From Bacillota bacterium (GTDB lineage: Bacteria; Bacillota; Sulfobacillia; Sulfobacillales; JAIMBI01): a DNA stretch of 64,000 nt. The notes beneath the pieces are model-generated. The model did not search any database, was not told the DNA's origin, and worked only from the letters and a program-made list of their open reading frames with translations. A program made the translations under genes and the position numbers. Location of the stretch: assembly GCA_021846565.1 (NCBI GenBank), contig JAJZWS010000007.1, positions 1 through 64,000 of the forward strand. The letters run 5' to 3'. Below are positions 4,877-38,589 of this stretch, piece after piece; positions within the stretch are counted from its first letter, which is position 1, and every line of letters begins with the position of its first letter.

Positions 4877-4877
4877 G

Positions 4878-5240
4878 GTGAGGGACGAGACGCAAGCGAA
4901 AGACACCATCACGGTGCCGGAAGTCGTCGAGCGGTTGCAGCGTGGAGACCCTACGGTGTTGATTGACGTGCGCTTTGGCAAGATGGGCGAGGTGCCCGGC
5001 TCCGTCGCCGTTCCGGTCACGGATTTGGAGGATGACCCTCGCGACTGGGACCGCGAGGCGCTGTTGGTGGTGTTTTGCCAACACGGGCATGGCGCCAGTG
5101 AGTACGCACAGGAAGTGCTGCGTGAGCAGGGATATGATCAGGTGCGGCGGCTGACCGGCGGCGTGGATGCCTGGGTGCAGTTTCACCACCGCCAACGGCC
5201 GGGGAAGGAGGCGGCGCCGACTGAATGCGGGCGCCCGTAA
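4878..5240 (+). CDS. Single-domain rhodanese-like sulfurtransferase
   Basis: A 120-residue cytoplasmic rhodanese domain. The active-site loop is VVFCQHGHGASEYA with the catalytic Cys at 67. The N-terminal LIDVRF and C-terminal LTGGVDAW motifs are typical. The GTG start lies one base after the prmC stop (TGAGGTG). The gene sits between prmC and an ion permease, in the place where Bacillus has other genes. The sulfur acceptor cannot be told from sequence. Confidence 0.88.
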   Translation: MRDETQAKDTITVPEVVERLQRGDPTVLIDVRFGKMGEVPGSVAVPVTDLEDDPRDWDREALLVVFCQHGHGASEYAQEVLREQGYDQVRRLTGGVDAWVQFHHRQRPGKEAAPTECGRP

Positions 5241-5243
5241 CCC

Positions 5244-6494
5244 ATGACCGACGCCGCGCTGTGGGCCCTCGTCGTCTTTGGGCTGCTGTACGTCATGCTG
5301 GTGGGTGAATGGGTGCATCGCGCGGTCGCGGCGCTGGCGGCCGCGCTGGCAGTGGTGTTTGGCGGACTGCTGCCGCCCGCCCGGGCCGTGGCCGCGGTGG
5401 ACTGGAACACGATCCTGCTGTTGTTTGGCCTCATGGTGCTGGTGAGCCTGGGCGAAGAGGTGGGGTTGTTTCCGGCACTCGCCTCCTGGGTTCGCCGGGT
5501 GACCGGGCCGTCGCCGTGGGGAACCATTCTTGGGTTCATGATCGTGGTGGCGGTGCTGTCCAGTGTTCTGCCCAACCTGTCCGTGATCCTGATTCTGGGC
5601 CCCGCCCTGTTCACGGCGGCCGAGCACTGGGACTTGGACCCGGTGCCGCTCTTGGTGTTTGCCATTATGGCGTCCAACCTGGCGGGCCTGGCCACCCTGG
5701 TGGGCGACCCGCCCAACATCCTCATCGGCACCGCTGCCGGGCTGTCCTTTACGCAATTCGTCACGCACCTGGGTCCTTTGGCGCTGGTGTTGGTGTTGAT
5801 GGTCCTAGGCTATGCGCGCCTGGCGCTCAAGCCACCCGACCGGGCCGCGGCGCGCTGGCACCCGACGTCCATCCCGCATCTGCGCAGCGGCTGGGCGTTG
5901 GGGGTCGTGATGGGGGCCACCCTGGTGGGCTTCATCCTGCAGTCGGATCTGGGGATGCCCGTGGGCGTCATCGCCGTAGCCGGCGCGACGCTGGCGCTGT
6001 TGCTGGTGGGGGGAGACGTGGAGCACCATCTCCGCGAGGTGGACTGGGGCACGCTGGTGTTTTTCGCCGGCCTGTTCATCGTGGTGGGGGCGCTGGTGCG
6101 AGCCGGCGTCATTCGAGCGGCCGGAACCTGGCTTTTGGCGCAGCACCTGGGCGACGGGCTTCCGGTGGCCGTGTTGGTGGCGACCGCCGTCTGTTCGGCC
6201 GTATTGGACAACATACCCATTGTGGCCGCCGCCATTCCGCTGGTGTCGGGCATCGTGGCCCAGGACCCCCAATATGGCCTCACGCTGTGGCTGGCGCTGG
6301 CGGCTGGTGCCGCCGTGGGTGGCAACGCCACGCTGCTGGGCGCCTCAGCCAACCTGGTGGGGGTGAGCCTCGCCCGTACCCGGGGATACGCCCTCGGCTT
6401 TAAGACGTACCTGCGCTGGTCCCTGCCGCTGTCGGGAGCCACCCTCGCGGTGGCGGTGGCGTGGCTTTGGTGGCAAGCAGGGATCACGCGCTGA
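5244..6494 (+). CDS. ArsB/NhaD-family ion permease
   Basis: A polytopic membrane protein of 416 residues with about eleven hydrophobic segments. Family signatures are VGDPPNILIGTAAGLSF in the first half and VLDNIPIVAAAIPLV in the second half, the two inverted repeat motifs of the ion transporter superfamily that includes ArsB, NhaD and SLC13 carriers. Substrate is not determinable: arsenite, sodium/proton exchange or an organic anion are all possible. It follows the rhodanese gene by 3 bases and is probably co-transcribed with prfA-prmC. Confidence 0.82.
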   Translation: MTDAALWALVVFGLLYVMLVGEWVHRAVAALAAALAVVFGGLLPPARAVAAVDWNTILLLFGLMVLVSLGEEVGLFPALASWVRRVTGPSPWGTILGFMIVVAVLSSVLPNLSVILILGPALFTAAEHWDLDPVPLLVFAIMASNLAGLATLVGDPPNILIGTAAGLSFTQFVTHLGPLALVLVLMVLGYARLALKPPDRAAARWHPTSIPHLRSGWALGVVMGATLVGFILQSDLGMPVGVIAVAGATLALLLVGGDVEHHLREVDWGTLVFFAGLFIVVGALVRAGVIRAAGTWLLAQHLGDGLPVAVLVATAVCSAVLDNIPIVAAAIPLVSGIVAQDPQYGLTLWLALAAGAAVGGNATLLGASANLVGVSLARTRGYALGFKTYLRWSLPLSGATLAVAVAWLWWQAGITR

Positions 6495-19470: not shown

Positions 19471-19866
19471 GGATTGCCCTCCGGTTTGGTGAGCGACGCG
19501 GACACCCCCTGGGCATCGAAGAGTTGAACCCGGGGAATGTGGACCGAGTCGTCTTCGCAGCCGAAACGAGTGGGCACTTGGCTACAGCACACCCATATCC
19601 GACCGCCCCGAACTGGCTCATCAGGTCATGCAAGAAATCGTGACCCACTCGTCACCGTTGTCCGCTCGCAGAACGACAAGCCGAGCGCCGGGAATCATGG
19701 TGTTTGCCGCCCGCTGATCGTCGGCTGCTGGACTCTGTGACCTCCAGCGGGGCCAGGCCATCCGCACCGTTAGGGCCAACGGTGCGGAAGATGAGGCCCA
19801 CGCTGTTCCTGTCCCGTCCCGGCGGCCACCCGCCACGAACCCGGCCACCGCACAGACTGTCTGCAT
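19467..19866 (-). pseudogene. Broken upstream partner of the preceding remnant
   Basis: A reverse frame with ARLVVLRADNGDEWVTISCM stops, and coding resumes in another frame as RIWVCCSQVPTRFGCEDDS followed by VHIPRVQLFDAQGVSASLTK, ending at a TGA that overlaps the start of the next remnant. The two pieces together read like the C-terminal part of a small beta-rich protein. One frameshift near 19635 separates them. Family unknown. Confidence 0.45.
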
Positions 19867-20342
19867 GTAAGCTGAGGCAAGCGTCTCCTTTGGTATTAGT
19901 TAGGATGGAGGTTGGGCGTCATGGGGAATCAGCCCCCGCTGGCATGCTGGTGCCGGGCCGCCATTGTGGGTCGCGATCCCTTCACAAAAAGGGAGAGCAA
20001 GGGGTGCTGCTCCGGTCGGCGGCAAACTGTGCTCCACCACTCTCTGACACGGGCTGCCAAATTCCCGACATCTCACGGTTGACCGATCGCAGTGCGCAGA
20101 GTTCGACGTCGAGGGCAATATCTCTGCTGACCTGGAGCCGCCATGCGCACCGTCCGAGCCGAGGGGGCTCCTCGACGGCCACATCCGGAGGCCGAGGCGG
20201 TGGTCCACCGGTGAGCGCTCTGCGTCCCGCAGGCAGGAGTGCGGCCCACGGGTCGCGAAGCGGTAGGCGACGGGCAGCGTGGTGGCACGGCCCGCTCGCA
20301 AAGCAAGCAACCAGGGCGACCGAACATAGGGAGGGATGGATG
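19867..20342. other. Intergenic; possible further reverse-strand remnant
   Basis: No intact gene is seen. A reverse frame around 20060-20180 reads WRLQVSRDIALDVELCALRS, protein-like but isolated, and may belong to the same decayed block. The forward frame that enters the BNR gene from 19704 is fortuitous upstream of 20340. No convincing promoter was found for the BNR gene. Confidence 0.35.
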
Positions 20343-23300
20343 ATGAGCAACAATCAGACGGAAACCGTGCAGGACGCCGTGTCCTCGTTGGAGTGGCGGC
20401 TTATTGGCCCGTTTCGCGGCGGCCGCGCCACGGCGGTGGTGGGCCATCCCCACGACCCGCTGTGTTTCTATTTCGGTGCGTGCGCCGGCGGCGTGTTCAA
20501 AACCATGGACGGGGGCCTGCACTGGCAGAACGTCTCGGACGGCTTTTTTCGCACCGCGTCCGTGGGAGCGCTGGCACTGGCGCCGAGCCGGCCGGAGGTG
20601 GTGTACGCGGGCATGGGGGAGGCGTGCATTCGGGAAAATGTGCTGCACGGCGACGGGGTGTACCGGTCCGATGATGGTGGAGCGACCTGGCGTCATCTGG
20701 GTCTCGCCGAAACTCGCCAGATTTCGCGAATTCGGGTCCACCCCGACAACCCGGACCTGGTGTACGTGGGGGCGTTTGGCCACGCCTTTGGGGCCAATCC
20801 TGAACGGGGCGTCTACCGATCACGGGACGGGGGACAGCATTTCGAGCGCGTGCTGTTTGTGGACGACCAGAGTGGCGTGATTGACCTCAGCATGGACGCC
20901 AGCTGCCCGACCGTGCTGTATGCGGCCACCTATGAAGCCCACCGCACCCCATACAGCCTCGAATCCGGTGGGCCTGGCAGTCGCCTGTACCGCACGCGCG
21001 ACGGCGGCGACACCTGGGAGGAACTGACCGGCCGCCCCGGCATTCCGGAGGGCGTGAAGGGCCGCCTCGCGGTGGCGGCGGCGCCCCAGACCGGCCGAGT
21101 GTATCTGTCGCTGGAGATGGGCGGCAGCGACGGGGGGCTGTACCGGTCTGAGGACTACGGCGAGCACTGGCAGAAACTCACCGACAATCCCGAGTTGCGC
21201 CAGCGGCCCTGGTATTTCAGCCACCTCTTTGCGGACCCGGTGGACCCGGATCGGCTCTACGTGTTGAACTTCGAAAGCTGGCGTTCCCAGGATGGCGGGA
21301 AAACCTTCGAGAAAATGTCTGCCGGCCACGTGGATCACCACGATCTTTGGATTGATCCCCAAAACCCCCGCCGGCTCATCAATGGGCACGACGGCGGAGC
21401 CGCCGTGAGTTTTGATGGGGGGGCCTCGTGGTCTACGATCCTGAACCAGCCGACGGCGCAGTTCTACCACGTCACCACCGATGCGCGACATCCCTTTCGG
21501 GTGTACGGCGCCCAGCAGGACAACTCCACCCTGTCCGTGCCCAGCCGCACGGACAGCGCCGCCATCACGGCGTCTACGTGGCATGCCGTGGGGGGCGGGG
21601 AGAGTGGCTACATCGCCGTGCGGCCCGATGACCCCGACATTGTTTACGCGGGCAGCTACAATCTGTTGACGCGCTACCACCACAAAAGTGGCGACGTCCG
21701 CAACATCACGGCGTGGCCCGCCGATGTATCGGGCGCGGGGGCCAAGGAAGCGCGCTACCGATTCCAGTGGACATCGCCGATGTTGCTGTCCCCGCACGAC
21801 CCGAAGACTCTCTACCACGCCGCCAATGTCGTGTTTCGCTCGACCGATGAGGGCCACAGCTGGACGGTCATCAGCCCGGATTTGACGCGGGACGACAAGT
21901 CCAAGCAGGAGTCGTCGGGCGGGCCGGTGACGAAGGACAACACCAGCGCGGAGTTCTATTGCACCATCTTCGCGCTTGCGGAGTCTCCCGTCACGCCAGG
22001 CGTGCTGTGGGCCGGGTCGGACGACGGTCTCATCCACGTCACACGCGACGGGGGCACTACGTGGACCAATGTGACGCCGCGCGACATGCCCGAGTGGGCT
22101 CTGGTGGCCATCATCGAGCCGTCGCGGACCGACGCGGGCACGGCCTACGTGGCGGCCACGTGCTACAAGAGCGACCAGCTCCAGCCACTCATGTACCGCA
22201 CGCGCGACTTCGGCGCCTCGTGGACGCCGATTACGGCCGGCATCCCCGACGACGAGCCGACCCGGGTGGTGCGGGACGACCCCAGACGTCCCGGCCTGCT
22301 GTGGGCCGGGACGCTGCGCGGGGTGTACGTCTCCCGGGATGCCGGGAGCGCATGGGCGCCACTGGCGCTGAACCTCCCCGTGGTGCCCGTTTGGGACATT
22401 GCGTTTCATGAAGACGCGGTGGTTTTGGGCACGCACGGGCGGGGCTTTTACGTACTGGACGACGCCACGCCGCTGCGTGCGCTGTGGGACAACGACGAGC
22501 AGACATCGGTCGCACCACCTGTCCGCTTGTACCCGGTCGCACCGGTCGTCCGCCCGCGAGGTGGCCGCGGCGAGGGCGGCCGACGGGAAGGGGCCCGCGG
22601 CGTCGCGATGGTCGACAATGAGATGGCGGCGTGGGAGCGCACGTGGGACCGTGACGGCGAGCCAGGTATCCGCTGGCTGGACGCGGGGGCCAATCCGCCG
22701 GTCGGCGTCCCGCTGCACTACTGGCTGGCAGCGGATGCCGTCGTCACGGCCGAGACTCCTCTTACCCTCCGCGTTCTCGACGAGGCGGGCCGCGTGTTAA
22801 AGACGCTGTCCTCGCACCCCGCCGACCCCAAACCGGGCGTGAAGCCCGAGAAACAGCTGGCCACCACGCCCGGCGCACACCGGGTGCTGTGGGATGCGCG
22901 CTACCCCGACGCACTCCCAATGCCCGGTGCGGTGTATCGGGGAGGCGGCATTCGGGGTCCGCTGGCACCCCCCGGTACCTACCGCGTGGAGCTGACGCTT
23001 GGGTCTGTGCAGGTGGTGCGCTCGGTCGACCTGCGACGCGATCCCCGCGTGGAGGCGACCGACGCGGACCTGACGGCCCAGTGGGAGCTGCTGTCCACGA
23101 TTCGGGATCAGGTGACCGCGGTGCATGAGCTGGTCTTTCGCATCCGGCGCACGCGCGACGCGATTCGCTTCTATCAGGAGCTGGCCGGACAGCCCGAGCC
23201 GGCGGGCCTGACCGAGGCGGCCGCCGCGCTGTGGGCTCGGCTCGAGGCGTTGGAGGGAGAGCTGCACCAGACGAAGGCGCTGTCGCCCAAAGATCTGTTG

Positions 23301-23519
23301 AATGTGCCCGGCAAACTGGCGCAGCGGCTGGTGTCGCTGGCGGGAGCGGTGGGGACGGGCCAGGCTCGCCCCACCCGTCAGATGCGTGCAGTGCACACGG
23401 TCCTGACGGAGCGGTTCGCTGCGCTCCGAGCTCAGGCGGACAGCGTCTGGGCGGAGGAGGCCGAAAGCTTCCGCCGGGTGGTGGAGTCCCTCCACCTGCC
23501 GGTGCTGCCACCTTCATAA
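20343..23519 (+). CDS. Large BNR/sortilin-type beta-propeller protein
   Basis: A 1058-residue protein made mostly of BNR (Asp-box) repeats: YRSDDGGATWRHLG, YRSRDGGQHFERV, YRTRDGGDTWEEL, YRSEDYGEHWQKL, VTRDGGTTWTNVT and others, as in VPS10/sortilin-like glycosyl-hydrolase annotations. The last 300 residues form a separate beta domain (LRVLDEAGRVLKTL, LAPPGTYRVELTLG) followed by a helical tail. There is no signal peptide, so it is probably cytoplasmic. ATG 20343 is preceded by AGGGAGGG. No sialidase catalytic residues can be assigned from sequence alone. Function unknown; binding or scaffolding is as likely as hydrolysis. Confidence 0.85.
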   Translation: MSNNQTETVQDAVSSLEWRLIGPFRGGRATAVVGHPHDPLCFYFGACAGGVFKTMDGGLHWQNVSDGFFRTASVGALALAPSRPEVVYAGMGEACIRENVLHGDGVYRSDDGGATWRHLGLAETRQISRIRVHPDNPDLVYVGAFGHAFGANPERGVYRSRDGGQHFERVLFVDDQSGVIDLSMDASCPTVLYAATYEAHRTPYSLESGGPGSRLYRTRDGGDTWEELTGRPGIPEGVKGRLAVAAAPQTGRVYLSLEMGGSDGGLYRSEDYGEHWQKLTDNPELRQRPWYFSHLFADPVDPDRLYVLNFESWRSQDGGKTFEKMSAGHVDHHDLWIDPQNPRRLINGHDGGAAVSFDGGASWSTILNQPTAQFYHVTTDARHPFRVYGAQQDNSTLSVPSRTDSAAITASTWHAVGGGESGYIAVRPDDPDIVYAGSYNLLTRYHHKSGDVRNITAWPADVSGAGAKEARYRFQWTSPMLLSPHDPKTLYHAANVVFRSTDEGHSWTVISPDLTRDDKSKQESSGGPVTKDNTSAEFYCTIFALAESPVTPGVLWAGSDDGLIHVTRDGGTTWTNVTPRDMPEWALVAIIEPSRTDAGTAYVAATCYKSDQLQPLMYRTRDFGASWTPITAGIPDDEPTRVVRDDPRRPGLLWAGTLRGVYVSRDAGSAWAPLALNLPVVPVWDIAFHEDAVVLGTHGRGFYVLDDATPLRALWDNDEQTSVAPPVRLYPVAPVVRPRGGRGEGGRREGARGVAMVDNEMAAWERTWDRDGEPGIRWLDAGANPPVGVPLHYWLAADAVVTAETPLTLRVLDEAGRVLKTLSSHPADPKPGVKPEKQLATTPGAHRVLWDARYPDALPMPGAVYRGGGIRGPLAPPGTYRVELTLGSVQVVRSVDLRRDPRVEATDADLTAQWELLSTIRDQVTAVHELVFRIRRTRDAIRFYQELAGQPEPAGLTEAAAALWARLEALEGELHQTKALSPKDLLNVPGKLAQRLVSLAGAVGTGQARPTRQMRAVHTVLTERFAALRAQADSVWAEEAESFRRVVESLHLPVLPPS

Positions 23520-25131: not shown

Positions 25132-25161
25132 AGCTCCCGCCCCTCTTAAGGGGCGGGAGCT
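25132..25161. terminator. Bidirectional hairpin between spoIIID and the htrA cluster
   Basis: A 13-bp perfect inverted repeat (25132-25144 with 25149-25161) with a CTTA loop lies exactly between two convergent genes. No T-run is present on either strand. Confidence 0.7.
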
Positions 25162-26396
25162 CACGCCACGGGCGCGGGAATGAGCGTGACGGTGGCGGTT
25201 TGCTGCGTATGCGCGGGGGTGACCCACGTCACCGTGATCCGGGACCCCGGCCGGCGAGCCTTGATGAGCTGATTCAAGCTTTGAATGTTGGCCACTTGGG
25301 CCCCGTCCACGGCCACCACCACATCCAAGGCGGACAGGCTCGTCCCGGCGGCCGGAGTGTTGGGCAGCACGCGCACGACGACAGCCCCTCGGGTGGTACC
25401 CAGACGGCGTTCCTCTGCGGGGCGCAGACTGCCGGGATTGACCATTTCTACGCCGAAAAACCCCTGCCGCTGCAGAAGTATGGTGGCGCTGCCGTGTCCG
25501 TCCTCGATCGCGCGGACAATTCGGAGGGCCCGGTCGATCGGAATGGCAAAGCCCGCACGCATGGGCGCCGAGCTTCCCCCGATGATGGGGGCCACCGCGC
25601 TACCGGTGGCGGTTTGGCCCGCCGTGTCCATGCCGATCACCTGACCGGCGCGGTCGAGCAACGGTCCGCCAGAGTCGCCGGGCTCGAGCGCGGCATCCAT
25701 CTCCAGCATGTTGGTGAGGTGCTCGGTGGGCACCGTGTAGCCCGTGGCGGTGATGGCTTGGCCCTCCGCGGTGATCACGCCCGCCGTGACCGCCGGTGTT
25801 CCCCCGAGCCCCAGCGCGTTGCCAATGGCCACCACGCCGTTTCCCACGCCCACGGTACTGGACTGGCCCAGCGGGACGGTGGGAAGGCCGCTCGACCCCT
25901 CCAGCTGGAGCACGGCGACATCGTCGGTGGGGTCTACGCCCAGGACTCGCGCGGCGTAGGTGCCGTGGTGGGGGACAGCCACCCGGATGGTTCCGGCACC
26001 GGCCACCACGTGGTTGTTGGTGAGCACCACGCCGGTGGAGGTGAGAACCATGCCCGTGCCGGCCACCTGCCCCCGACCGTAGGCGAGGGTCACATTGATG
26101 TCGACAATGGCAGGGTCCACACGGGCAGCGATGGCCGCCGCAGGCATCGGGGCGGCCCTCCGCACGGCCAGCGGCTCGCGCAGCAGGTGCCCCCACCCCA
26201 CCGGGGGACTGCTGGCGGCAAAGCTGGAGAGCGTGCTGGCCACGGCCAGCCCGGCGGCGGCGACGGCGGCCGCTCCCAATGCGGTGCGGCCCCACGGGGG
26301 CCGGCGCAGCGACCCGCGTCTCGGCGGGGCCGGCGGCGACTCGTCGAGGGCACGCCGGGGCCCGGCGTTGCTGGTGTTGTTGTCCACTGGCTCCAC
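25161..26396 (-). CDS. HtrA-like serine protease with PDZ domain (copy 1)
   Basis: A membrane-anchored DegP/HtrA protease of 411 residues: short Pro/Arg-rich cytoplasmic tail, one membrane helix (about 38-60), trypsin-like domain with His129 (TNNHVV), Asp159 (DDVAVL) and Ser242 (GDSGGPL), then one PDZ domain with GVEMVNPGSL and VVVRVLPNTPAAG. It should degrade misfolded extracytoplasmic proteins. GTG start; the final gene of a three-copy tandem set on the reverse strand, each with its own upstream gap. Confidence 0.92.
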   Translation of the reverse strand: MEPVDNNTSNAGPRRALDESPPAPPRRGSLRRPPWGRTALGAAAVAAAGLAVASTLSSFAASSPPVGWGHLLREPLAVRRAAPMPAAAIAARVDPAIVDINVTLAYGRGQVAGTGMVLTSTGVVLTNNHVVAGAGTIRVAVPHHGTYAARVLGVDPTDDVAVLQLEGSSGLPTVPLGQSSTVGVGNGVVAIGNALGLGGTPAVTAGVITAEGQAITATGYTVPTEHLTNMLEMDAALEPGDSGGPLLDRAGQVIGMDTAGQTATGSAVAPIIGGSSAPMRAGFAIPIDRALRIVRAIEDGHGSATILLQRQGFFGVEMVNPGSLRPAEERRLGTTRGAVVVRVLPNTPAAGTSLSALDVVVAVDGAQVANIQSLNQLIKARRPGSRITVTWVTPAHTQQTATVTLIPAPVA

Positions 26397-26429
26397 CCCG
26401 CTTTCCCGCCTTCCGATCCGACCGCGCCA

Positions 26430-26446
26430 CCCCTATCATGCCAGAC
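26430..26446 (-). promoter_or_regulatory. Candidate extended -10 promoter of htrA copy 1
   Basis: On the reverse strand the sequence reads TCTGGCATGATAGGGG, with TGG followed by CATGAT as an extended -10 element, 34 bases before the start codon. Almost the same element, at nearly the same distance, precedes copy 2. Confidence 0.4.
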
Positions 26447-26482
26447 TCGGGCCATGGCAGGCCTCCCGGCTCCATCGGCCGG

Positions 26483-27631
26483 TCAGGCCATCGGCGCCGA
26501 GGTGAGGAGCACCGTGGCCGACGTCCGCTGGCCCATCGGCGTGACCCAGGTAATCCGCAGAGGCGTGCCCGGCCGATGGTCGGCGATGTCCGTTGCCAGC
26601 TGCTGAATGTTGGCGACGGTCTGGCCGTTCACGGCCACCAGCACGTCACGGGGCGCGAGCGCCGCCTCGGCGGCGGGCGTGTGGGGGATGACGGCCACCA
26701 CGACGGCCCCCCTCTGAGTGCCCAGGCGCCTCGCCTGCGTAGCGGACAGGGTACGGGCGTTCACCACTTCGACCCCCAAGAACCCGTGGCGGGCCAGGAT
26801 CACCGTGGCACTGCCTCGGCCGCGCAGCATCTGCCTGGCCACGGCTCGCGCGCGACCAATGGGAATGGCAAATCCCACGGGGACGAGTCCCCGGCGGCCC
26901 GTGGCCGCTGCGGTGTCCATACCCACCACAGCCCCCCACCGCACCACCACCGGCCCACCGGAGTCTCCGGGCTGCAGCGCGGCACTGATTTGCAGCATGT
27001 CGCGCAGATGCTCCACGCCGCCCGCATCGTTGGTGGCCGTCACCGCGCGGTCCTCGCCGGTGATCATCCCGGTGGTCAGGGAGAGCGGGCCCCCAAGCCC
27101 CAGCGCGTTGCCGATGGCCACCACGCCGGTGCCCAGCGTAGCGCCGGCCGGATCGCCGAAAGCCATCACCGGAAGCGGCGGGGCGCCAACCACCTGCAAC
27201 AGTGCCACGTCGACGGTGGGATCCACACCCACCACGCGCGCCAGGTAGGTGCCCCCGTGCTGCACCGCCACCGTGAGAGCGGCCGCCCCCGCCACCACAT
27301 GGTTGTTGGTGAGCACGAGCCCCCCCGCCGTGAGAATCATCCCCGTGCCCTGAGCTTCACCGGCTCCGTTGGCCAGGATCGCATTGATGTCGACGACGGC
27401 GGGTTCAATGCGGGCCGCGATGGCCTCGGTCGTGAGGCGGCGGAATTGGGAGGAGGCCAGCGGTTGGCCGGATACCGGCGTGACCCTCGGATGCGGCGCG
27501 TGTGCGACGAGGAGCCCTGCCAGGATGGCGGCCACCATCAGGGCGGCCAGGGTGCGCCACGAGCGGCGCCATCCCCGCCATTGCAGGCGGGGGCCCAACC
27601 CCGGGTCGCCGCCCCTGCCATGCACCTTCAT
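26483..27631 (-). CDS. HtrA-like serine protease with PDZ domain (copy 2)
   Basis: A 382-residue paralogue of copies 1 and 3. Membrane helix at about 27-45; catalytic His111 (TNNHVV), Asp141 (TVDVALL) and Ser224 (GDSGGPV); C-terminal PDZ with GVEVVNARTL and VVVAVIPHTPAAE. It is the most divergent of the three, with DVALL in place of DDVAVL. I chose ATG 27631, which follows GGGAGGG at 10 bases; the longer frame upstream runs into the promoter-like element. Confidence 0.92.
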   Translation of the reverse strand: MKVHGRGGDPGLGPRLQWRGWRRSWRTLAALMVAAILAGLLVAHAPHPRVTPVSGQPLASSQFRRLTTEAIAARIEPAVVDINAILANGAGEAQGTGMILTAGGLVLTNNHVVAGAAALTVAVQHGGTYLARVVGVDPTVDVALLQVVGAPPLPVMAFGDPAGATLGTGVVAIGNALGLGGPLSLTTGMITGEDRAVTATNDAGGVEHLRDMLQISAALQPGDSGGPVVVRWGAVVGMDTAAATGRRGLVPVGFAIPIGRARAVARQMLRGRGSATVILARHGFLGVEVVNARTLSATQARRLGTQRGAVVVAVIPHTPAAEAALAPRDVLVAVNGQTVANIQQLATDIADHRPGTPLRITWVTPMGQRTSATVLLTSAPMA

Positions 27632-27666
27632 GGTTACCGGTCCCTCCCGCGCTCGACCGCCGTCTA

Positions 27667-27683
27667 TCCCCATGATGCCAGAT
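27667..27683 (-). promoter_or_regulatory. Candidate extended -10 promoter of htrA copy 2
   Basis: On the reverse strand it reads TCTGGCATCATGGGG, 36 bases before the chosen start, sharing 13 of 14 aligned positions with the element before copy 1. Confidence 0.4.
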
Positions 27684-27802
27684 TCCGCTGTCGGTGCACG
27701 GTCGCAGACGACCCCTGAGGACGCATCGTGCCGCCGGCACGCCAAGGGGGCGGCCGACGCCGCCCCCGGTTGGGAATTCCTCTGCGAGTCCGTCCGCGAG
27801 AC

Positions 27803-29071
27803 TTACTGGACGGGTGCCGCAGTCAGATTGGCCGTCCCCGACTGGTCGGTGCCTCCGGGCGTGACCCACGTGAACGAAATCTCAGTGCCTGGGGAGTGAC
27901 TTTGAATCGCATGGCCCAGCTGGCTGATGTTGCTGACCGTGTGTCCATCAACCGACACGATGACGTCCCCGGCCTGCAGGCCGCTCTGGGATGCCGGGGT
28001 GCCGGGCAAAATCTTCACCACGGCGGCTCCGGTCTGCGAACCCAACTGCTGTGCTTGCACCGGCGAGAGGTTGCTGGGATTCACCACTTCCACCCCCAGG
28101 AAGCCCGCCCGGTGGAGTAGCACCGTGGAGCTGGCCTGCCCGTGCTCAATCTCCGACGCGATGCGCAGCGCGCGGTCGATGGGGATGGCGAACGCTACGC
28201 TGGACGGGGAGGTGTTGGGGACCCCGATCGGCGCGTAGGCGCTGCCTCCGGACGTTTCCGCCGCAGTGTCCATGCCCACCACCTGTCCTTGGCGGTTCAC
28301 CAGCGGGCCGCCGGAGTCACCGGGTTGCAGCGATGCGTCGGTCTGCAGCATGTTGGTGAGGTGTTCCGAACTACCGGCCCCGTTGGTGGCGGTGATGGCC
28401 CGCCCTTCCGCCGTGATGGCGCCCGCCGTCACCGACGGGGGGCCGCCGAGGCCCAAGGCGTTGCCGATGGCAACGACCTGGGTCCCGATGGGCGTGGTGG
28501 CGGAATTGCCAAACGGCATGACCGGAAGATTGCTGGCCCCGACGAGCTGCAGGACCGCCACGTCATCCTTGGGATCTACGCCCAGCACGTGGGCGCGGTA
28601 GGTGCCGTGGTGCGGCACCACCACTTGAATCGTGCCCGCGCCCTCGACGACGTGGTTGTTGGTCAGCACCTTGCCGGAGGCAGTGAGAATCATCCCCGTG
28701 CCCTCAGCCTTGCCCTGGCCATACGCCAGGGTCACGTTGACGTCCACGACTGAGGGCTCAATGCGGGCCGCGACCGCCGCGGTCGACAGCTGGCGGCTCG
28801 TGGTCACGCCCAGCGGGTGGTGGAGCAGGCTCGTCAGGTGGCCAGCGCCTCCCGAGTTGAGATAGGTGGCCACGACCCCGCCGGTAGCTCCCGCTGCCAC
28901 GACGAGCGCCAGGATGCCCACGAGAGCGCGGCCGCGCCGACGCGGCGGCGGAGACGACGGCCCGGACGGTCCCGACTGCCACGTGTCCACCGGTGTTGTC
29001 GGGTTCATGGGCGGATTCTCACGGCTGGCTGTGTCCGGGTTGGCCTTGGAGTCCTGGAAGTCCTGGTCCAT
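27803..29071 (-). CDS. HtrA-like serine protease with PDZ domain (copy 3)
   Basis: A 422-residue member of the set, closest to classical HtrA. Cytoplasmic Pro-rich tail, membrane helix at 49-70, catalytic His140, Asp170 and Ser253 (GDSGGPL), PDZ with GVEVVNPSNL, VVKILPGTPASQSGLQAGD and VDGHTVSNI. ATG 29071 follows GAGGTG by five bases. It is divergent from the two-component system, the arrangement expected for a CssRS-type secretion-stress response. Confidence 0.94.
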   Translation of the reverse strand: MDQDFQDSKANPDTASRENPPMNPTTPVDTWQSGPSGPSSPPPRRRGRALVGILALVVAAGATGGVVATYLNSGGAGHLTSLLHHPLGVTTSRQLSTAAVAARIEPSVVDVNVTLAYGQGKAEGTGMILTASGKVLTNNHVVEGAGTIQVVVPHHGTYRAHVLGVDPKDDVAVLQLVGASNLPVMPFGNSATTPIGTQVVAIGNALGLGGPPSVTAGAITAEGRAITATNGAGSSEHLTNMLQTDASLQPGDSGGPLVNRQGQVVGMDTAAETSGGSAYAPIGVPNTSPSSVAFAIPIDRALRIASEIEHGQASSTVLLHRAGFLGVEVVNPSNLSPVQAQQLGSQTGAAVVKILPGTPASQSGLQAGDVIVSVDGHTVSNISQLGHAIQSHSPGTEISFTWVTPGGTDQSGTANLTAAPVQ

Positions 29072-29265: not shown

Positions 29266-29973
29266 GTGGAGGTCGTGGCGGATGGAGAGGCGCAGCACAT
29301 TTTGGTCGTGGACGACGAGCCGTCGATTGTGGACGCGGTCGCGACCACGCTGCGCTATGAAGGATACCGTGTGTCCCAGGCGTCCAGCGGGCAGGCGGCG
29401 CTCTCGGCCGCCCAGGACACTGCGTTTGACCTCGTGGTTTTAGACGTCATGCTGCCGGATATCGATGGCTTTCGGGTGACGCGGCGCCTCCGCGAGGACG
29501 GCATACGCGTTCCGGTGCTGTTCCTGACGGCCCGTGACGCCGTCGATGACAAAATCAGCGGGCTTACGGTCGGCGGCGACGACTACGTGACCAAGCCGTT
29601 CGCGCTGGCCGAAGTGGTGGCCCGCATTCGCGCCATCCTTCGGCGTACCGGCGACGAGGCGGCCGCCCAGTCGGCCCTGCGCTTCGCTGACCTCGTGTTG
29701 GACGAGGACACGCACGACGTGTCGCGGGGTGGCCAGCCGGTGCAGCTGTCCGCCACCGAGTTCCGGCTGCTGCGGTTCTTCATGCAAAACCCGCGGCGGG
29801 TGCTGTCCAAAAGCCAAATCATCGACCACGTGTGGCACTACGATTTCGGCGGGGATGTGGCCATTGTGGAAACCTACGTGAGCTACCTGCGCAAGAAACT
29901 GGACCGCCTGGGACCACCCTTGATCCAAACGGTGCGCCTGGTCGGATATCGGCTGCGCGAGCCGGAGGCGTAG
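29266..29973 (+). CDS. OmpR-family response regulator
   Basis: 235 residues: receiver domain with phospho-acceptor Asp60 (VVLDVMLPD), acidic pocket VVDDEP and the KPF lysine, then a winged-helix domain with LSATEFRLLRFFMQNPRRVL and VETYVSYLRKKLD. GTG 29266 is used; GTG 29275 is possible. The stop overlaps the kinase start by one base, so the pair is coupled. Likely targets are the divergent htrA3 and itself. Confidence 0.93.
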   Translation: MEVVADGEAQHILVVDDEPSIVDAVATTLRYEGYRVSQASSGQAALSAAQDTAFDLVVLDVMLPDIDGFRVTRRLREDGIRVPVLFLTARDAVDDKISGLTVGGDDYVTKPFALAEVVARIRAILRRTGDEAAAQSALRFADLVLDEDTHDVSRGGQPVQLSATEFRLLRFFMQNPRRVLSKSQIIDHVWHYDFGGDVAIVETYVSYLRKKLDRLGPPLIQTVRLVGYRLREPEA

Positions 29974-31397
29974 TGACGCTGCGCAACCGTCTCTTGTGGG
30001 CTGCCGCCGGGGTGGCGCTCTTGGCCGTGCTCGCGACGGGGCTCATCACCTACTCGGCGGTGAGCTCTTTTCTGTACAGCCAGGTGGACCAGACCCTGGT
30101 GGCGGCCCAGGGCCCGCTCCGCCAGACGCTGCTGGCGGGTCGGCCGGTGAGCCTGTCCGTCGTGGGACGACTCGCGCCCGGCATGTTTGTTCAGGTGCGC
30201 GCCCCTTCGGGTGCTGTGCTCGGGACCGTGGAAGCGGTGACACCCGGGGGCCCGGCGCTGGCTCCCCGTGTGCCCGCCGACCTGCCGCTGGGTCGGCCGG
30301 GCCCAGCGGGGATGAACCGCGGCCTGCTGCTCACGCTGCCGGCCATGACGTCGGGCGGGCCGCTGTTTCGCGTGCTGGTGGCGCCGCTCACCGGGGGTGG
30401 GCGTTTGATTCTTGGGTACCCCCTGTCCGCCGTGACCACGGTGCTGCGCGAGTTGGAGTACGCGCTCATTGTGGTGGCGGCGGCGGCCCTTCTGGGGGCG
30501 GAAACCCTGGGCTGGTGGCTGGTGGGCATTGGGCTCCGGCCCTTAAAGGCGATGGAGCGCACCACGGCCGCTATCGCCTCGGGCCAGCTGGACGAGCGGG
30601 TGCCCGAAGGACATCCCGCTTCCGAACTGGGCCATCTGGCCCGGTCGTTCAACGTCATGCTGGATCGCATTCAAGAGGCCTTCCGCCACCGCGACGCCGT
30701 CGAGGATCGGCTGCGCCGGTTTGTGGCCGACGCGTCGCACGAGCTGCGCACCCCGGTGGCCGCTGTCGCCGCCTACGCGGAACTGTTTCACCGGGGCGCG
30801 GAAAACCGGCCCGAGGATCTGACCCGCGTGATGCACGGCATCCAGGGTGAAACGGCGCGCATGACCCGCCTCGTAGAAGACCTGATGCTGTTGGCGCGGC
30901 TGGACGAGGGACGCGCCCTGGAGTCCCAACCAGTGGAGCTTTTGTCGCTCGCGCTGGAAGCGGCCGACACGTCGCGGGCCGTGGGACCGGCTTGGCCGGT
31001 GGAGGTTGTGGCGCACGAGCCGGTGGAGGCTTGGGGCGACCCGCTGCGCCTGCGACAGGTGCTGGACAACCTCCTGGGCAACGTGCGCGCGCACACCCCG
31101 CCCGGCACGCGCGCTCGCATCACGGTGCGGGCAGACGACCGCTGGGCGTCGGTGGCTGTGGCCGACAACGGACCTGGCATGCCTCCGGAGCAAATGGATC
31201 GAGTTTTCCAGCGCTTCTATCGGGCGGATCCCTCGCGCTCACGGCACACCGGCGGCGCCGGCTTGGGTTTGGCCATTGTCGACGCGATTGTGAGCGCGCT
31301 GGGCGGCCGGGTGACGGTCGACTCCTCCGCTGAGGGCGGACTGGAGCTCTCGGTGCGGCTGCCGCGGGCACCGCGACCCGACGAGGGCGACACCTGA
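29973..31397 (+). CDS. Membrane sensor histidine kinase
   Basis: 474 residues: membrane helix at the N-terminus (LLWAAAGVALLAVLATGLIT), an extracellular domain of about 130 residues, a second helix (ALIVVAAAALLGAETLGWWL), HAMP linker, dimerisation domain with the phosphorylated His256 (DASHELRTPV), and an ATPase domain with N box LLGNVRAHTPPG, DNGPGMP and GGAGLGLAIV. GTG start after GCCGGAGGCGTA. The layout is that of CssS/PrrB-type envelope-stress sensors. Confidence 0.93.
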   Translation: MTLRNRLLWAAAGVALLAVLATGLITYSAVSSFLYSQVDQTLVAAQGPLRQTLLAGRPVSLSVVGRLAPGMFVQVRAPSGAVLGTVEAVTPGGPALAPRVPADLPLGRPGPAGMNRGLLLTLPAMTSGGPLFRVLVAPLTGGGRLILGYPLSAVTTVLRELEYALIVVAAAALLGAETLGWWLVGIGLRPLKAMERTTAAIASGQLDERVPEGHPASELGHLARSFNVMLDRIQEAFRHRDAVEDRLRRFVADASHELRTPVAAVAAYAELFHRGAENRPEDLTRVMHGIQGETARMTRLVEDLMLLARLDEGRALESQPVELLSLALEAADTSRAVGPAWPVEVVAHEPVEAWGDPLRLRQVLDNLLGNVRAHTPPGTRARITVRADDRWASVAVADNGPGMPPEQMDRVFQRFYRADPSRSRHTGGAGLGLAIVDAIVSALGGRVTVDSSAEGGLELSVRLPRAPRPDEGDT

Positions 31398-31514
31398 TAG
31401 GCGCGAGAGTCGCGGCCAGCGCGGCATGAATCAACGGTTCGGACTTGCGCGGGGTTATCATCAGAGTCGGGCGGCGCGGTCGCCACCCATGACACACGAG
31501 AGGGGTGGCCAGCG

Positions 31515-32624
31515 GTGGAGACACCGTCGATCGGAGGGAGCGGGCATCGTGGTCCGGCGCTGACGGTCGTTATGGTGGGCACCAACACAGGCCTCTTTCG
31601 ATTTGCCTCGACGGATCGGCTGCATTGGGAGGCGTTGGGGCCGGTGTTGCCAGGCACGAGTATCCACTGCAGGGCCTACCATGCGCCGACGCGGACGGCG
31701 TTCGCGGGCGCGAACTCGGTGTTGTGCGGTGCGGCGGTTCGTCGGTCCCGAGACGGGGGGGCGACTTGGGATCGTGGCGGCGAGGGGCTCGCCTACGGGG
31801 CGGAGGACCCCGAGCGCGTGACGGCGGTGTGGTCGCTGGCGGTAGCGGACGAACATGGTCCGGGCACAATTTACGCCGGTGTGGAGGCCAGCGGGCTGCT
31901 TCGGTCGTGGGACGGCGGGGACTCCTGGGCCGAGGGGGCCGCGCTGCGGCGCCAGCCCACGCACGAGGTGTGGAATGCGGACTTCGGCGGGAAGTGCCTG
32001 CATACCATCGCGGTGGATCCCCAGGACGCCAACAACATGTATATCGCCCACTCGAGCGGCGGCATCTATGGGTCCGGGGACGGCGGCGAGACCTGGGATC
32101 CCGTCAACCAGGGGATTCGCGCCGAGTTTATGCCGGAAGGGCAACAGTACCCGGCCGCGGGCCAGGGCGTCCACCAGTTTGGGCCGTCGGCCGCCCGCGC
32201 GGACCGAATCTGGCTGCCGAATCACGGCGGGTTGTACCGGTCCGACGATGCGGGTTGGCTCTGGCAGCCTATCTCGGCATCGCTGCCGGACGACTTTGGG
32301 TTTCCGGTGAGGCTGCAGCCGCGCCGGGCCGAGACCGCCTTCGTGGCGCCCCTCACGTCGACGTCGGACTGGGGGCACCCCGAGGAGCGCATGGCGGTGC
32401 ACCGCACGGACGACGGCGGCCAGACGTGGAACCGACACCATAAGGGCCCGCCGGACCGGGTGTACAGCGGCGTCTTGCGGGACGCTTTTCGGGCAGATAC
32501 CCAGGACCCGCTGGGACTGTACGTCGGCACCACGAACGGCCAGCTGTTTGGGTCAGCGGATGAAGGGGTCGTGGACCCCGATTGCCGAGCGGCTGCCGCG
32601 GATTCTCTCGGTGCAGGTGCTTGA
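31515..32624 (+). CDS. BNR/WD40-like propeller protein, C-terminus frameshifted
   Basis: A 369-codon frame with Asp-box repeats (VRRSRDGGATWDRG, LLRSWDGGDSWAEG, IYGSGDGGETWDPV, LYRSDDAGWLWQPI, VHRTDDGGQTWNRH) and no signal peptide. The last repeat is broken: after GSADEG an extra G in the run at 32565-32568 shifts the frame. Removing one G restores SWTPIAERLPRILSVQVLEG and a TGA at 32641-32643 that overlaps the ATG of the MoaD-like frame. The intact gene was therefore 31515-32643 and coupled to moaD. Start GTG 31515 is a choice; an internal ATG at 31572 is possible. Confidence 0.75.
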   Translation: METPSIGGSGHRGPALTVVMVGTNTGLFRFASTDRLHWEALGPVLPGTSIHCRAYHAPTRTAFAGANSVLCGAAVRRSRDGGATWDRGGEGLAYGAEDPERVTAVWSLAVADEHGPGTIYAGVEASGLLRSWDGGDSWAEGAALRRQPTHEVWNADFGGKCLHTIAVDPQDANNMYIAHSSGGIYGSGDGGETWDPVNQGIRAEFMPEGQQYPAAGQGVHQFGPSAARADRIWLPNHGGLYRSDDAGWLWQPISASLPDDFGFPVRLQPRRAETAFVAPLTSTSDWGHPEERMAVHRTDDGGQTWNRHHKGPPDRVYSGVLRDAFRADTQDPLGLYVGTTNGQLFGSADEGVVDPDCRAAAADSLGAGA

Positions 32625-32639
32625 GGGCGACCCATTCTC

Positions 32640-32914
32640 ATGATTACGGTGCACTGGGCCGCGCGACCTGGCTGCGGAATTGTCATGCCGGAACACCCTC
32701 ATGGTGGACGGCGTGGGGGATCTGGTGGAGCTGTGGGCGGCCCTGGACCATCGCCATCCCGGCCTGGTACCGGTGGCTCCGCGAGCCGGACGGCGTGCTG
32801 CGCCAGCACCTCTCCTTGTTTGTGACTGCCCGGCGGGTCGCTTGGGCGGACGAGCCTCTCGCGTTCCACGCCGGCCAGGAGGTGTGGATTCTGCGGGCCG
32901 TGTCCGGGGGATAG
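32640..32914 (+). pseudogene. MoaD/ThiS-like ubiquitin-fold sulfur carrier, two frameshifts
   Basis: From ATG 32640 frame 0 reads MITVHWAAR. Near 32665 coding moves to the next frame with LMVDGVGDLVELWAALDHRH. Near 32760 it moves again with WYRWLREPDGVLRQHLSLFV and ends EVWILRAVSGG at 32914. The reassembled 90-residue protein has the beta-grasp pattern and the terminal Gly-Gly needed for adenylation. It sits between a BNR gene and its likely E1 enzyme. Either the gene is newly broken or the assembly has indel errors here; a third frameshift lies 100 bases upstream. Confidence 0.7.
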
Positions 32915-32935
32915 CGAGCGGGACAGGAGGGCGCG

Positions 32936-34102
32936 GTGAACGAACACGGGAACCCACAGCGGGCGGAAACGGATCAGGCGCGGGCGGAAAGCCACGTCGC
33001 GCGCTACCACCGCCAAATTATCCTGCCGGAGCTTGGTCTGGCGGGCCAGCGTGCCCTGTCCGCGAGCCGCGTGCTGGTGGTGGGGGCCGGGGCACTCGGG
33101 TCGGCGGCCGCGCTTTACCTGGCGGCCGCCGGCGTCGGCACCATCGGGATCGCCGACGGCGACCGGGTGGACCTCTCGAACCTCCACCGGCAGGTCCTGC
33201 ATGGGACCAGTGACATCGGGCGGCTGAAAACCGCCTCCGCCAAAGATCGTTTGGCCGCCCTGAACCCGGAGGTGCGCGTGGTGGAGCACGTGGGCTACCT
33301 GAACAGTGACAACGTGCTGGACGTCATGGCGGGATACGACGTGATCGTGGACGGGAGCGATTCGTTTGCTGCGCGCTATCTGGTCAACGACGCGGCGGTG
33401 CTGCTGGCCAAGCCGTTGGTGACGGCCGCCATCCTGCGCTTCGAGGGCCAGCTGATGGTGTTTCGCCCGGGGGAAGGCTGTTATCGCTGCGTGTTTCCCG
33501 AGCCGCCCCCGGCCGGCACGGTGCCCAACTGCGCCGAAGCCGGTGTGCTGGGCGCTGTCGCAGGGGTCCTCGGCTCCACTCAGGCAGTGGAGGCGCTGAA
33601 GCTCATGGGCCGCATGGGAGAACCTGCGGTGGGGCGGCTTGGGCTGTACGACGCCTGGAGGGGCCGATGGCAGCAGGTCCAGGTGGCCCGGGACCCTGCG
33701 TGCGCAGTGTGTGGCGACCATCCGACGATTACCGGGCCGATCGACTACGACGCCTGGTGTGGCGTGCCCGCGCCGGCAGCTGGCCCCGGGGCGCCGGAGG
33801 TGTCGGTCGCGGAGGCCGAGCGCCTCATGCACCAGGGGGTCCCATTCGTGGACGTGCGCCCCGAGGCGGAGTACGCGCGGGGCCACATCCCGAGTGCCGT
33901 CTTGGTGGGGCCCGACCCCTCGGCTACCCAGTTGCCCGGGACGGCGGACGCGGCGGTGGTGTGCGTCTGCCTCCAGGGCGTGCGCAGTGCGGCCGTGGCC
34001 GCGCGGTTGGAATCCCAGGGCCGCTCCGCCGTGAGCCTCGCGGGAGGGCTCCTGGCTTGGGCTCAAGCGGGGCTGCCTTGGGAGGGCCAGCTGCCGACCT
34101 AG
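32936..34102 (+). CDS. MoeB/ThiF-type adenylyltransferase fused to rhodanese
   Basis: 388 residues with the architecture of MoeZ and MOCS3: an E1-like domain (VLVVGAGALGSAAALYLAAA, DGDRVDLSNLHRQVLH, the Asp of DGSDSFAARYLVND), zinc cysteines in CYRC and CAVC, a catalytic-type Cys in GTVPNCAEAGVLG, and a C-terminal rhodanese domain with VVCVCLQGVRSAA. It would adenylate the Gly-Gly end of a MoaD-like protein and then load sulfur. GTG 32936 follows ACAGGAGGGCGC. It is intact, unlike its neighbour's carrier gene. Confidence 0.9.
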   Translation: MNEHGNPQRAETDQARAESHVARYHRQIILPELGLAGQRALSASRVLVVGAGALGSAAALYLAAAGVGTIGIADGDRVDLSNLHRQVLHGTSDIGRLKTASAKDRLAALNPEVRVVEHVGYLNSDNVLDVMAGYDVIVDGSDSFAARYLVNDAAVLLAKPLVTAAILRFEGQLMVFRPGEGCYRCVFPEPPPAGTVPNCAEAGVLGAVAGVLGSTQAVEALKLMGRMGEPAVGRLGLYDAWRGRWQQVQVARDPACAVCGDHPTITGPIDYDAWCGVPAPAAGPGAPEVSVAEAERLMHQGVPFVDVRPEAEYARGHIPSAVLVGPDPSATQLPGTADAAVVCVCLQGVRSAAVAARLESQGRSAVSLAGGLLAWAQAGLPWEGQLPT

Positions 34103-34290
34103 GCGGAGTCTCGGGGGCGACGCCAAGCCAACGCCAAATCGGCGGCGCCCAGCGCACGCTGGGCGTCCTCCGCACGGTAGGCCACCGTGGGGATGCAGTC
34201 CAAATCGCCATGACCAGCATCTCCTTACGCTTGCGCTCTTCTGCCTGACGGCCTCCCCGGTCGTGTCGCCCCAACGCCTTTCACAGCCAT
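34099..34290 (-). pseudogene. Small decayed reverse-strand ORF
   Basis: Reverse-strand coding-like sequence from ATG 34290 reads MAVKGV, then in a second frame RHDRGGRQAEERKRKEMLVM, then in a third frame LDCIPTVAYRAEDAQRALGA ending at a TAG that overlaps the moeB stop region. Two frameshifts are needed. No family is recognised. It lies 17 bases downstream of the DUF2325 gene and could have been its operon partner. Confidence 0.3.
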
Positions 34291-34307
34291 TGTATCGCTC
34301 GTGGCCG

Positions 34308-35378
34308 CTATCCGGCATCGTCGTCGACGTCCTCCAACTGGGTTGTGATGAGTGTGACGGCCCAGTCGGCCACGCTCTTGATCCCGTCGGTGCCAATGCG
34401 CCGCACCGGGATCCCCAGTTGCTTGCCCAGCTGAGTGGCGCTTTCGCTGGCATGGTGAGAACAGTGGTTTTTCAAGATGAGGGCGGCATCGACCCGTCGC
34501 AGAGCGGCGGCGAGGCGGTCGTCGCCGTCGTCGCCTGAACTCCATTCCATAGCGCCGCCTCTAAGCTCAATCGCTTTCGCGTATTGGCTTTGGCGGGGCT
34601 CGTTGCCCACGACCAGCACGCGTTTGCCATCCAACACGGGGTCAGGCCGCTCGCGCTTGACGCGGGGTGCCTTGGGCTTGGGCTTGGCTGACTCTGCGGT
34701 CGCCAACGCCTGCTCCTCCTCCGCAGAGCCCAGGTGATGAACCCAGGCCACCCGCACTGTCTGGGGATCGTCTGCCCAATAGGCCAAGTCCACCACGCTG
34801 CCCTCGTGAAAGTGCAGGGCGGCCGCGTCCTCGGGCCGCAGGGCGACCGGCGGATCCCACGGCCGCCCATCGGCGAACCGCCTGACCACCAGCGCATCCC
34901 CCTCCAACTCCACCAGGGCCATCTGTTCTTCGCGGCGCTCCCGGGGTTCAATGCTGGATCCACGTGTCAGGACCGTAAAGTCATAGTGTGGCGGCCCTTC
35001 CGAGTAGTTCGGCAACGCACGGTGGCTGAGGCGATCGCCCGTGGCGAGGTGGAGTTCCCGGACCACGGTTTCCGGCACGCGGACGTGTCCCGGCCAAAGC
35101 ACGCCGCCACGCAGACGGCGGTGGAACTCTTGCCCGAGATCGCGTTCGACCCGCGCCGGAGGGGAGGACAGCGCGGGCACCGGATCGGCATCGGGGGTCA
35201 CGCCATCCGGCGCGGCGGCCAACACGGCGTTGCGAAGCTCCGGCGGCAGCGCGTCGGTGAGCCGGATCCAGGCGGCAATGGCCTCCAACTCACTTGCAAC
35301 TTGAGGTAGACCCTCGGGACTCAGCCGGTCCAGCCGGCTTTGCAGGTACTGCGCCAACAGTTTGGCGAGGGAAGGCAT
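34308..35378 (-). CDS. DUF2325 domain protein with long N-terminal extension
   Basis: 356 residues. The C-terminal 100 residues are a DUF2325 domain: VLVVGNEPRQSQYAKAIEL, a GG before the variable part, then ALILKNHCSHHASESATQLG with the conserved His pair. The rest is an unrecognised region of about 240 residues, with an acidic, strand-rich middle and a basic Lys/Pro linker. ATG 35378 follows AAAGGAGTTTTT. The role of DUF2325 is unknown; members often sit in mobile or stress-related loci. Confidence 0.72.
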   Translation of the reverse strand: MPSLAKLLAQYLQSRLDRLSPEGLPQVASELEAIAAWIRLTDALPPELRNAVLAAAPDGVTPDADPVPALSSPPARVERDLGQEFHRRLRGGVLWPGHVRVPETVVRELHLATGDRLSHRALPNYSEGPPHYDFTVLTRGSSIEPRERREEQMALVELEGDALVVRRFADGRPWDPPVALRPEDAAALHFHEGSVVDLAYWADDPQTVRVAWVHHLGSAEEEQALATAESAKPKPKAPRVKRERPDPVLDGKRVLVVGNEPRQSQYAKAIELRGGAMEWSSGDDGDDRLAAALRRVDAALILKNHCSHHASESATQLGKQLGIPVRRIGTDGIKSVADWAVTLITTQLEDVDDDAG

Positions 35379-35564
35379 AAAAACTCCTTTCACAGGGGAA
35401 CCATAGGCCCGAGACAGCCTCCTTGAGCGCATGGCGGGTCGGATCCACATAGTGCGCTGCCGCCACCTTAGCACGGAGATCCCACTTATAGGAAGGGCAA
35501 TCGGTCGCAAGCGGGTCGCGTTATTTGTTGGGTGCAGCGCTGCTAAGCGGGTTCAGCGATCAAT

Positions 35565-38070: not shown

Positions 38071-38589
38071 ATGGACATTCGCGTCCGCGGGAAGAACGTG
38101 CCCCTGACCGATGCGTTGCGAGACCATGTGGAAAAGAAGCTCGGGAAGTTGTCGCGGCACTTCGGCCACGATCCCGTCGTGGCCGAAGCGGTTCTGTCCG
38201 TCGAGAAAGATCGCCAGATGATCGAGGTCACCTTGCCGCTCCCCCACGGACGCGTGCTCCGCGGCCAGGAGTCGACGGAGGACATGTATGCGTCCGTCGA
38301 GATCGTGGTCCAGAAGCTGGAACGTCAGTTGGACAAGCTCAAGTCGCACGCCAAGGCGCGGACGGCGCATAGCGCCGCCGAGCGTCCGACGCCCGGCGAT
38401 GAGCCCACGGACGGCACGGTGGTGCGCCGCAAGACGTTTCCCGACAAGCCCATGACCCTGGAGGAAGCTATCTTGCAGATGGATTTGGTGAGCCACGACT
38501 TTTTCGCCTTCACCAATGCGGAGAGCGAGCGCATCAACGTACTTTACCGCCGCAGAGACGGCAACCTAGGGCTCCTGGAACCGGACTAG
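38071..38589 (+). CDS. hpf: Ribosome hibernation-promoting factor, long form
   Basis: 172 residues: an N-terminal S30AE domain (MDIRVRGKNVPLTDALRDHV) that binds the ribosome, a linker, and the C-terminal dimerisation domain (KPMTLEEAILQMDLVSHDFF, NVLYRRRDGNLGLLEPD) that joins two 70S ribosomes into 100S dimers. This long form is typical of Firmicutes, where it lies just upstream of secA, as here. Confidence 0.95.
   Translation: MDIRVRGKNVPLTDALRDHVEKKLGKLSRHFGHDPVVAEAVLSVEKDRQMIEVTLPLPHGRVLRGQESTEDMYASVEIVVQKLERQLDKLKSHAKARTAHSAAERPTPGDEPTDGTVVRRKTFPDKPMTLEEAILQMDLVSHDFFAFTNAESERINVLYRRRDGNLGLLEPD

Follow-up and report, generated by a model that had tools for sequence, protein, structure and literature searches.

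The propeller-carrier-E1 locus

The window, that is the whole 64,000-nucleotide stretch that we analysed (Bacillota bacterium, assembly GCA_021846565.1, contig JAJZWS010000007.1, positions 1 to 64,000), carries a series of genes in the order three HtrA-like proteases, response regulator, histidine kinase (HK), Asp-box (BNR) beta-propeller, MoaD/ThiS-like carrier, E1-like adenylyltransferase and DUF2325 protein. This order is preserved in the congeners G001 and G002, and in G003 from the kinase on, where the G003 contig begins. The features of the central part are collected in Table 1. A scan of 31300-34300 for promoters and terminators returned no sites, and no second copy of 32400-32960 was found in the window genome (G000), where this segment gave a single match only.

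Table 1. Coordinates of the propeller-carrier-E1 locus in the window.
Feature	Position	Strand	Basis or remark
Histidine kinase (HK), intact upstream flank, control gene	29832-31397	+	listed ORF start probably too early
Asp-box (BNR) beta-propeller pseudogene	31515-32640	+	frame change, lost constraint, changed invariant sites
First frame break, propeller	32560-32572	+	2 bases fewer than in three congeners; G run of equal length
MoaD/ThiS-like carrier gene	32640-32914	+	in three frames; intact congener copies have 90 codons and a Gly-Gly end
Second frame break, carrier	32654-32660	+	1 base more than in three congeners
Third frame break, carrier	32765-32772	+	1 base more than in three congeners
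E1-like adenylyltransferase with C-terminal rhodanese domain (MoeB type), intact	32936-34102	+	

Several neighbours of the locus are of interest in their own right. The three tandem HtrA/DegP-like trypsin-PDZ proteases at 25161-29071 lie beside the response regulator and the histidine kinase, and the middle one is the most different from its G002 counterpart. The DUF2325 protein (34308-35510) is fast-evolving, with 82:100 altering:silent codons against G002 and 93:92 against G003. Another BNR-repeat protein, with an ORF of 1271 amino acids whose start is probably too early, is encoded at 19704-23519 and is present in G001 too.

The intact orthologue of the propeller is predicted, from profile and structure modelling, to be an Asp-box beta-propeller of the 3b7f type. 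A profile of 30 intact family members matched the PDB 3b7f chain over positions 1-352 of 353 (E 1.2e-98), and the structure model of the unaltered G002-type protein consisted mainly of strands, with a pLDDT of 91.5. The 3b7f protein is Ralstonia eutropha YP_299179.1, a seven-bladed Asp-box propeller whose function is given as 'not known' (PMC2716378). Although the family profile matches this chain over nearly its full length, the window copy differs from it as a pseudogene that is deprived of the closing strands.

Three frame breaks private to the window

The propeller frame opens at 31515 and runs into a stop at 32622-32624, and the conserved C-terminus goes on in another frame after about 32567; this out-of-frame part contains the final two strands of the modelled fold. 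The carrier changes frame near 32656 and again near 32768, with its conserved Gly-Gly end present. When the region was aligned with G001, G002 and G003, the window lacked 2 bases relative to all three at about 32567 and had 1 additional base at each of two places, about 32656 and about 32768. Of the four sequences aligned, only the window has these length changes; all of them shift the frame in the same direction modulo three, and together they leave the length equal to that of G002, the nearest congener. None of them alters a homopolymer run of four or more bases.

An earlier, sequence-only reading of this DNA had described three frameshifts within about 200 bases across the BNR end and moaD, two of them breaking the 90-residue carrier, with an intact E1 just downstream, and had proposed a comparison with sister genomes. 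The congener alignment confirms this picture, including the single frame of the E1. One detail did not hold. The first break had been attributed to an extra G in a run of four, and the G run at this site is equally long in all four sequences; the two-base shortfall that adjoins the run gives the same frame through another kind of event.

Open reading frames were compared between the window and each congener as a background for these breaks. With the ORFs of G001, 32 matches were kept (two of them propeller pieces) and three were flagged, namely the carrier and two others. G002 gave 11 matches with three flags (propeller, carrier and one ORF antisense to the proteases, judged on strand only), and G003 gave 11 with two (carrier and one other). 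Two of the three other flags from G001 and G003 reflect a stop upstream of an open window ORF (5244-6494 and 38071-38589), and the third is antisense to two open frames, which we take to be ATP synthase subunits c and b. In the reverse direction, 32 matches of window ORFs were kept against G001 and four were flagged there, namely the propeller and three ORFs interrupted by a single stop, at residues 8, 12 and 210 of the window ORFs; these three we read as over-long ORF starts. Within the compared parts of the window there were no further broken genes, the remaining flags being antisense ORFs or over-long starts.

Loss of constraint in the propeller gene

We polarised codon changes with G003 as outgroup and counted altering and silent codons on each branch, with the propeller counted up to 32558 and the HK over 247 of its 521 codons, since the G003 contig begins there. 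On the window branch the propeller showed 41:17 altering:silent changes, a fraction of 0.71 that equals the neutral expectation of 0.71, as compared with 3:11 on the branch of the sister G002. The window branch gave 8:25 for the E1 (9:25 in another count), 7:24 for HK and 21:33 for DUF2325. Polarisation by G001 led to the same picture, with 24:8 on the window branch against 2:5 on the sister branch, as did the full propeller gene, at 42:18 (3 of 376 codons skipped). The number of silent changes, 18, was lower than even the 24-36 that the control genes predict in the absence of errors.

Conserved positions were lost as well. Among 92 sites that are invariant in 11 outgroup propellers, the window has changed 13, ten of which are kept in both G002 and G003; the count is 3 of 92 in G002 and likewise in G003, and 4 of 91 in the two G001 pieces taken as one. 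If conservation in 10 of the 11 outgroups is taken as sufficient, 29 of 150 sites differ in the window, 15 in G002 and 12 in G003. The altered invariant residues include Cys, Trp and Arg, and the BNR and Sortilin Pfam scores of the window copy fall below the cut-offs that the G002 copy exceeds.

A joint maximum-likelihood codon model over propeller, carrier and E1, from which the first 17 E1 codons were omitted and in which the G001 branch is saturated (length 6.2), yielded a propeller omega of 0.39 on the window branch against a background of 0.055 (2dlnL 66, p 4e-16). A value of 1 over the entire window branch was rejected (p 3e-4), so the gene must have drifted for only part of the branch and been functional for part of the time; simple mixing arithmetic of our own assigns about one third of the branch to free drift. 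The single-gene fit of the propeller gave an omega of 0.49 and did not reject 1 (p 0.12). For HK the single-gene fit returned a window omega of 0.11 against 0.035 (p 0.0035), a smaller rise that is still far from 1. Four other single-gene fits (DegP, 25161, 26483 and 23967), for which the distant G001 was the only outgroup, produced unstable or raised window omegas, and for this reason we rely on the polarised counts and the joint three-gene fit instead; the response regulator, fitted with the same outgroup, was normal. In pairwise comparison with G002, the HtrA-like gene at 26483 has diverged about as much as the propeller (61:59 and 61:45, respectively), but its divergence is symmetric, with 7:12 and 6:10 on the two branches.

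Since neutral-type substitutions occur throughout the open part, the silent rate is not raised and 13 of the 92 invariant sites are broken, the propeller is a genuine pseudogene whose inactivation is not fresh. The sequence-only reading had named a freshly inactivated operon as one of two possibilities. Inactivation stands, freshness does not for the propeller, and 'operon' was too wide a term, because what has decayed is the propeller-carrier pair and the E1 is under clear constraint.

The carrier

The intact congener carriers have the features of ThiS/MoaD proteins, namely a match to PF02597 (30.9 and 31.8 bits in the G002 and G003 copies, above the cut-off of 22.5) and a C-terminal Gly-Gly. 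The three window ORFs that cover the carrier gave no Pfam match up to an E value of 1. Polarised counts were 6:4 altering:silent on the window branch and 2:4 on the sister branch; these numbers are too small to carry an argument, so the case for decay of the carrier rests mainly on its two shifts. In the joint fit, the carrier omega was 0.30 on the window branch against 0.09 elsewhere (p 0.006), and it also differed from 1 (p 4e-4). For a test of conserved sites we took the last 85 residues of 16 outgroup carriers, out of 21 from outside the congeners (L080, L095, L100, L101 and L103 were omitted), and selected the positions conserved in 80% or more of them; the readable pieces cover 21 such positions, and none was changed. 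Because the readable pieces keep all of these positions, the carrier would appear to have broken later than the propeller or, less likely, one of its shifts is an error.

The retained E1

The E1 is one open frame of 388 amino acids, and we take the stretch immediately 5' of its GTG start to resemble a ribosome-binding site. It matches the Pfam domains ThiF (260.9 bits) and Rhodanese (53.7 bits) and passes the MoeB subfamily model NF004281 (282.7 bits, cut-off 266); it lies over the cut-off of none of the equivalog models PRK08762, PRK07878, PRK07411 and moeB. Its omega in the joint fit was 0.11 on the window branch against 0.058 (p 0.057), and a value of 1 was rejected with p 9e-9. Decay is thus confined to the propeller-carrier pair.

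Two E1 proteins of the window genome exceed the ThiF cut-off, and a further, partial match stays below it. The other E1, on contig 128, directly follows thiS and thiG in a thiamine cluster. It scores higher against MoeB models (198 and 187 bits) than against the ThiF model (152 bits), none of them over its cut-off, and by these scores it could be an activator of MoaD too. A separate moaD-moaE pair lies on contig 96, where neither of two E1 searches gave a match. The MoaD of this pair scores 48.8 against the moaD equivalog cut-off of 66.15, and is thus below it, and exceeds the cut-off of PF02597; a search with the latter model missed the G001 carrier, and its silence therefore does not prove that a carrier is absent. 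We infer that the window E1 activates the contig-96 MoaD, a prediction from gene content. The E1 was probably kept because the genome has just two, of which the other sits in the thiamine cluster, and because the moaD-moaE pair has no adjoining E1.

A precedent for an E1 with several clients is mycobacterial MoeZR, which is reported to sulfurate both MoaD and CysO (PMC3227635). The window E1 resembles it in its ThiF plus rhodanese architecture and in passing the MoeB subfamily model, and by analogy with MoeZR it is plausibly common to several carriers. It differs in scoring below the MoeZ model (357.9 against 647) and PRK08762 (407 against 449) and in sitting in a propeller-carrier operon, its carrier specificity being a prediction.

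Probable decay and its alternatives

Taken together, we favour ordinary decay, with a probability of roughly 75%. The propeller would have been inactivated on the window lineage after the split from G002, the nearest sampled sister, and would have drifted since; the adjoining carrier is out of frame as well, a change that probably came later. Selection would still act on the downstream E1 because it has more than one carrier to activate, among them most likely the molybdenum-cofactor MoaD whose gene lies elsewhere. In the intact relatives, the E1 would adenylate the carrier at its Gly-Gly tail, sulfur would come from the rhodanese domain, and the charged carrier would work with the propeller protein.

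An account that overlaps with this one accepts the propeller as a true pseudogene and holds that one or both of the carrier shifts are errors, with the carrier still being made. The unchanged conserved positions of the carrier and its departure from an omega of 1 speak for it, as does the precedent of G001, in which the propeller is broken and the carrier open. Against it stand the raised omega of the carrier on the window branch and its two private shifts, which, together with the one in the propeller gene, fit a decay that is still under way. We regard a carrier that is still made as unlikely, if worth keeping in mind.

If instead the contig were wrong throughout this region and all genes were intact in the cell, then random errors should have lifted the silent changes in the propeller to 37-47, depending on the control gene, against the 18 seen. 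Constraint was moreover lost in the still open 1 kb that precedes the first shift, the flanking HK and E1 show no such burst, and no homopolymer run of four or more is altered. Error could account for three length changes within about 200 bases and for the unchanged conserved sites in the readable pieces of the carrier, and it would also be in keeping with the fragmentation of the genome (134 contigs) and with the assembler coverages of just 2.5-4.3 in the public records of the congeners. The sequence-only reading had offered a faulty assembly as the alternative to inactivation. As the main explanation it is contradicted by the silent rate and the flanks, and we consider it improbable.

Positive selection on a propeller with a new role and a shorter C-terminus would account for the many amino-acid changes in a frame that stays open up to 32558. 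An altering proportion of 0.70 of 60 changes is the neutral one, however, omega lies below 1, invariant Cys, Trp and Arg residues are altered and the last two strands are out of frame, which makes functional divergence very hard to believe. Programmed frameshifting, to which the shared direction of the shifts might point, is rejected, since G002 and G003 read the same proteins with no shift at all and the two genes would require three recoding events between them.

The intact system in relatives

We examined 32 public propeller loci, three congeners included. Over the matched range 31 of the 32 propellers are open (among them L104, with a stop at residue 361 of 362); the sole exception is L099, the G001 locus (L099 4001-5082; G001:C80 about 4068-5140), whose propeller has breaks of its own, one frame change and, close by, an in-frame TAG, and whose carrier and E1 are open. 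Intact loci occur, for example, in the culturable relatives Alicyclobacillus ferrooxydans (L081) and Sulfobacillus harzensis (L085). The G001 propeller omega was not raised in the joint fit (0.048, p 0.24), so this loss would be recent or partly an error. A Gly-Gly carrier, defined as an open stretch of at least 55 residues ending in Gly-Gly within 700 bases of the propeller, follows in 24 of the 32 loci, and a match to the window E1 in 12 of 32, in counts for which some loci end too early and distant E1s are missed. The fact that a carrier follows the propeller more often than an E1 relative does suggests that propeller and carrier form a functional unit and that the E1 is a shared resource.

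Other arrangements were seen among these loci. In L089 and L091 (G006:C201 and G004:C12) the E1 lies directly after the propeller, with no space for a carrier. Second, divergent propeller copies, of about 52% identity, occur in L046 (G003:C163) and L047 (G004:C65); the G003 copy is followed by a carrier on a 5.4 kb contig that showed no match to the window E1, and the G004 copy lies at a contig end.

Operons of ThiS/MoaD proteins with E1-rhodanese proteins outside the thiamine and molybdenum pathways have been described by Iyer et al. 2006 (PMC1779556). The likeness to our locus consists in a carrier and an E1-rhodanese protein in one predicted operon, with the thiamine and molybdenum loci lying apart from it in the genome. 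The subtypes described in section 12 of that paper differ in carrying a JAB peptidase, cysteine synthase, ClpS, sulfate or siderophore genes; no propeller is named in that section, and the words 'sialidase' and 'glycosyl hydrolase' are absent from the running text. A literature search, mostly at the level of listings, found no description of a propeller-MoaD link or of a propeller-carrier-E1 operon.

We tentatively propose, as a conjecture that may well prove wrong, that the propeller and its Gly-Gly carrier constitute a dedicated, undescribed two-gene module that uses the MoeB-type E1 of the cell and has been lost more than once in the genus. Such a module might perform carrier-dependent sulfur transfer or ubiquitin-like conjugation, with the propeller as partner or target. 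As a pseudogene, the propeller is a case of ordinary decay. The decay of propeller and carrier with the E1 kept is at the same time a natural experiment that points to the genes that belong together, and it offers a testable handle on a propeller family for which a solved structure exists.
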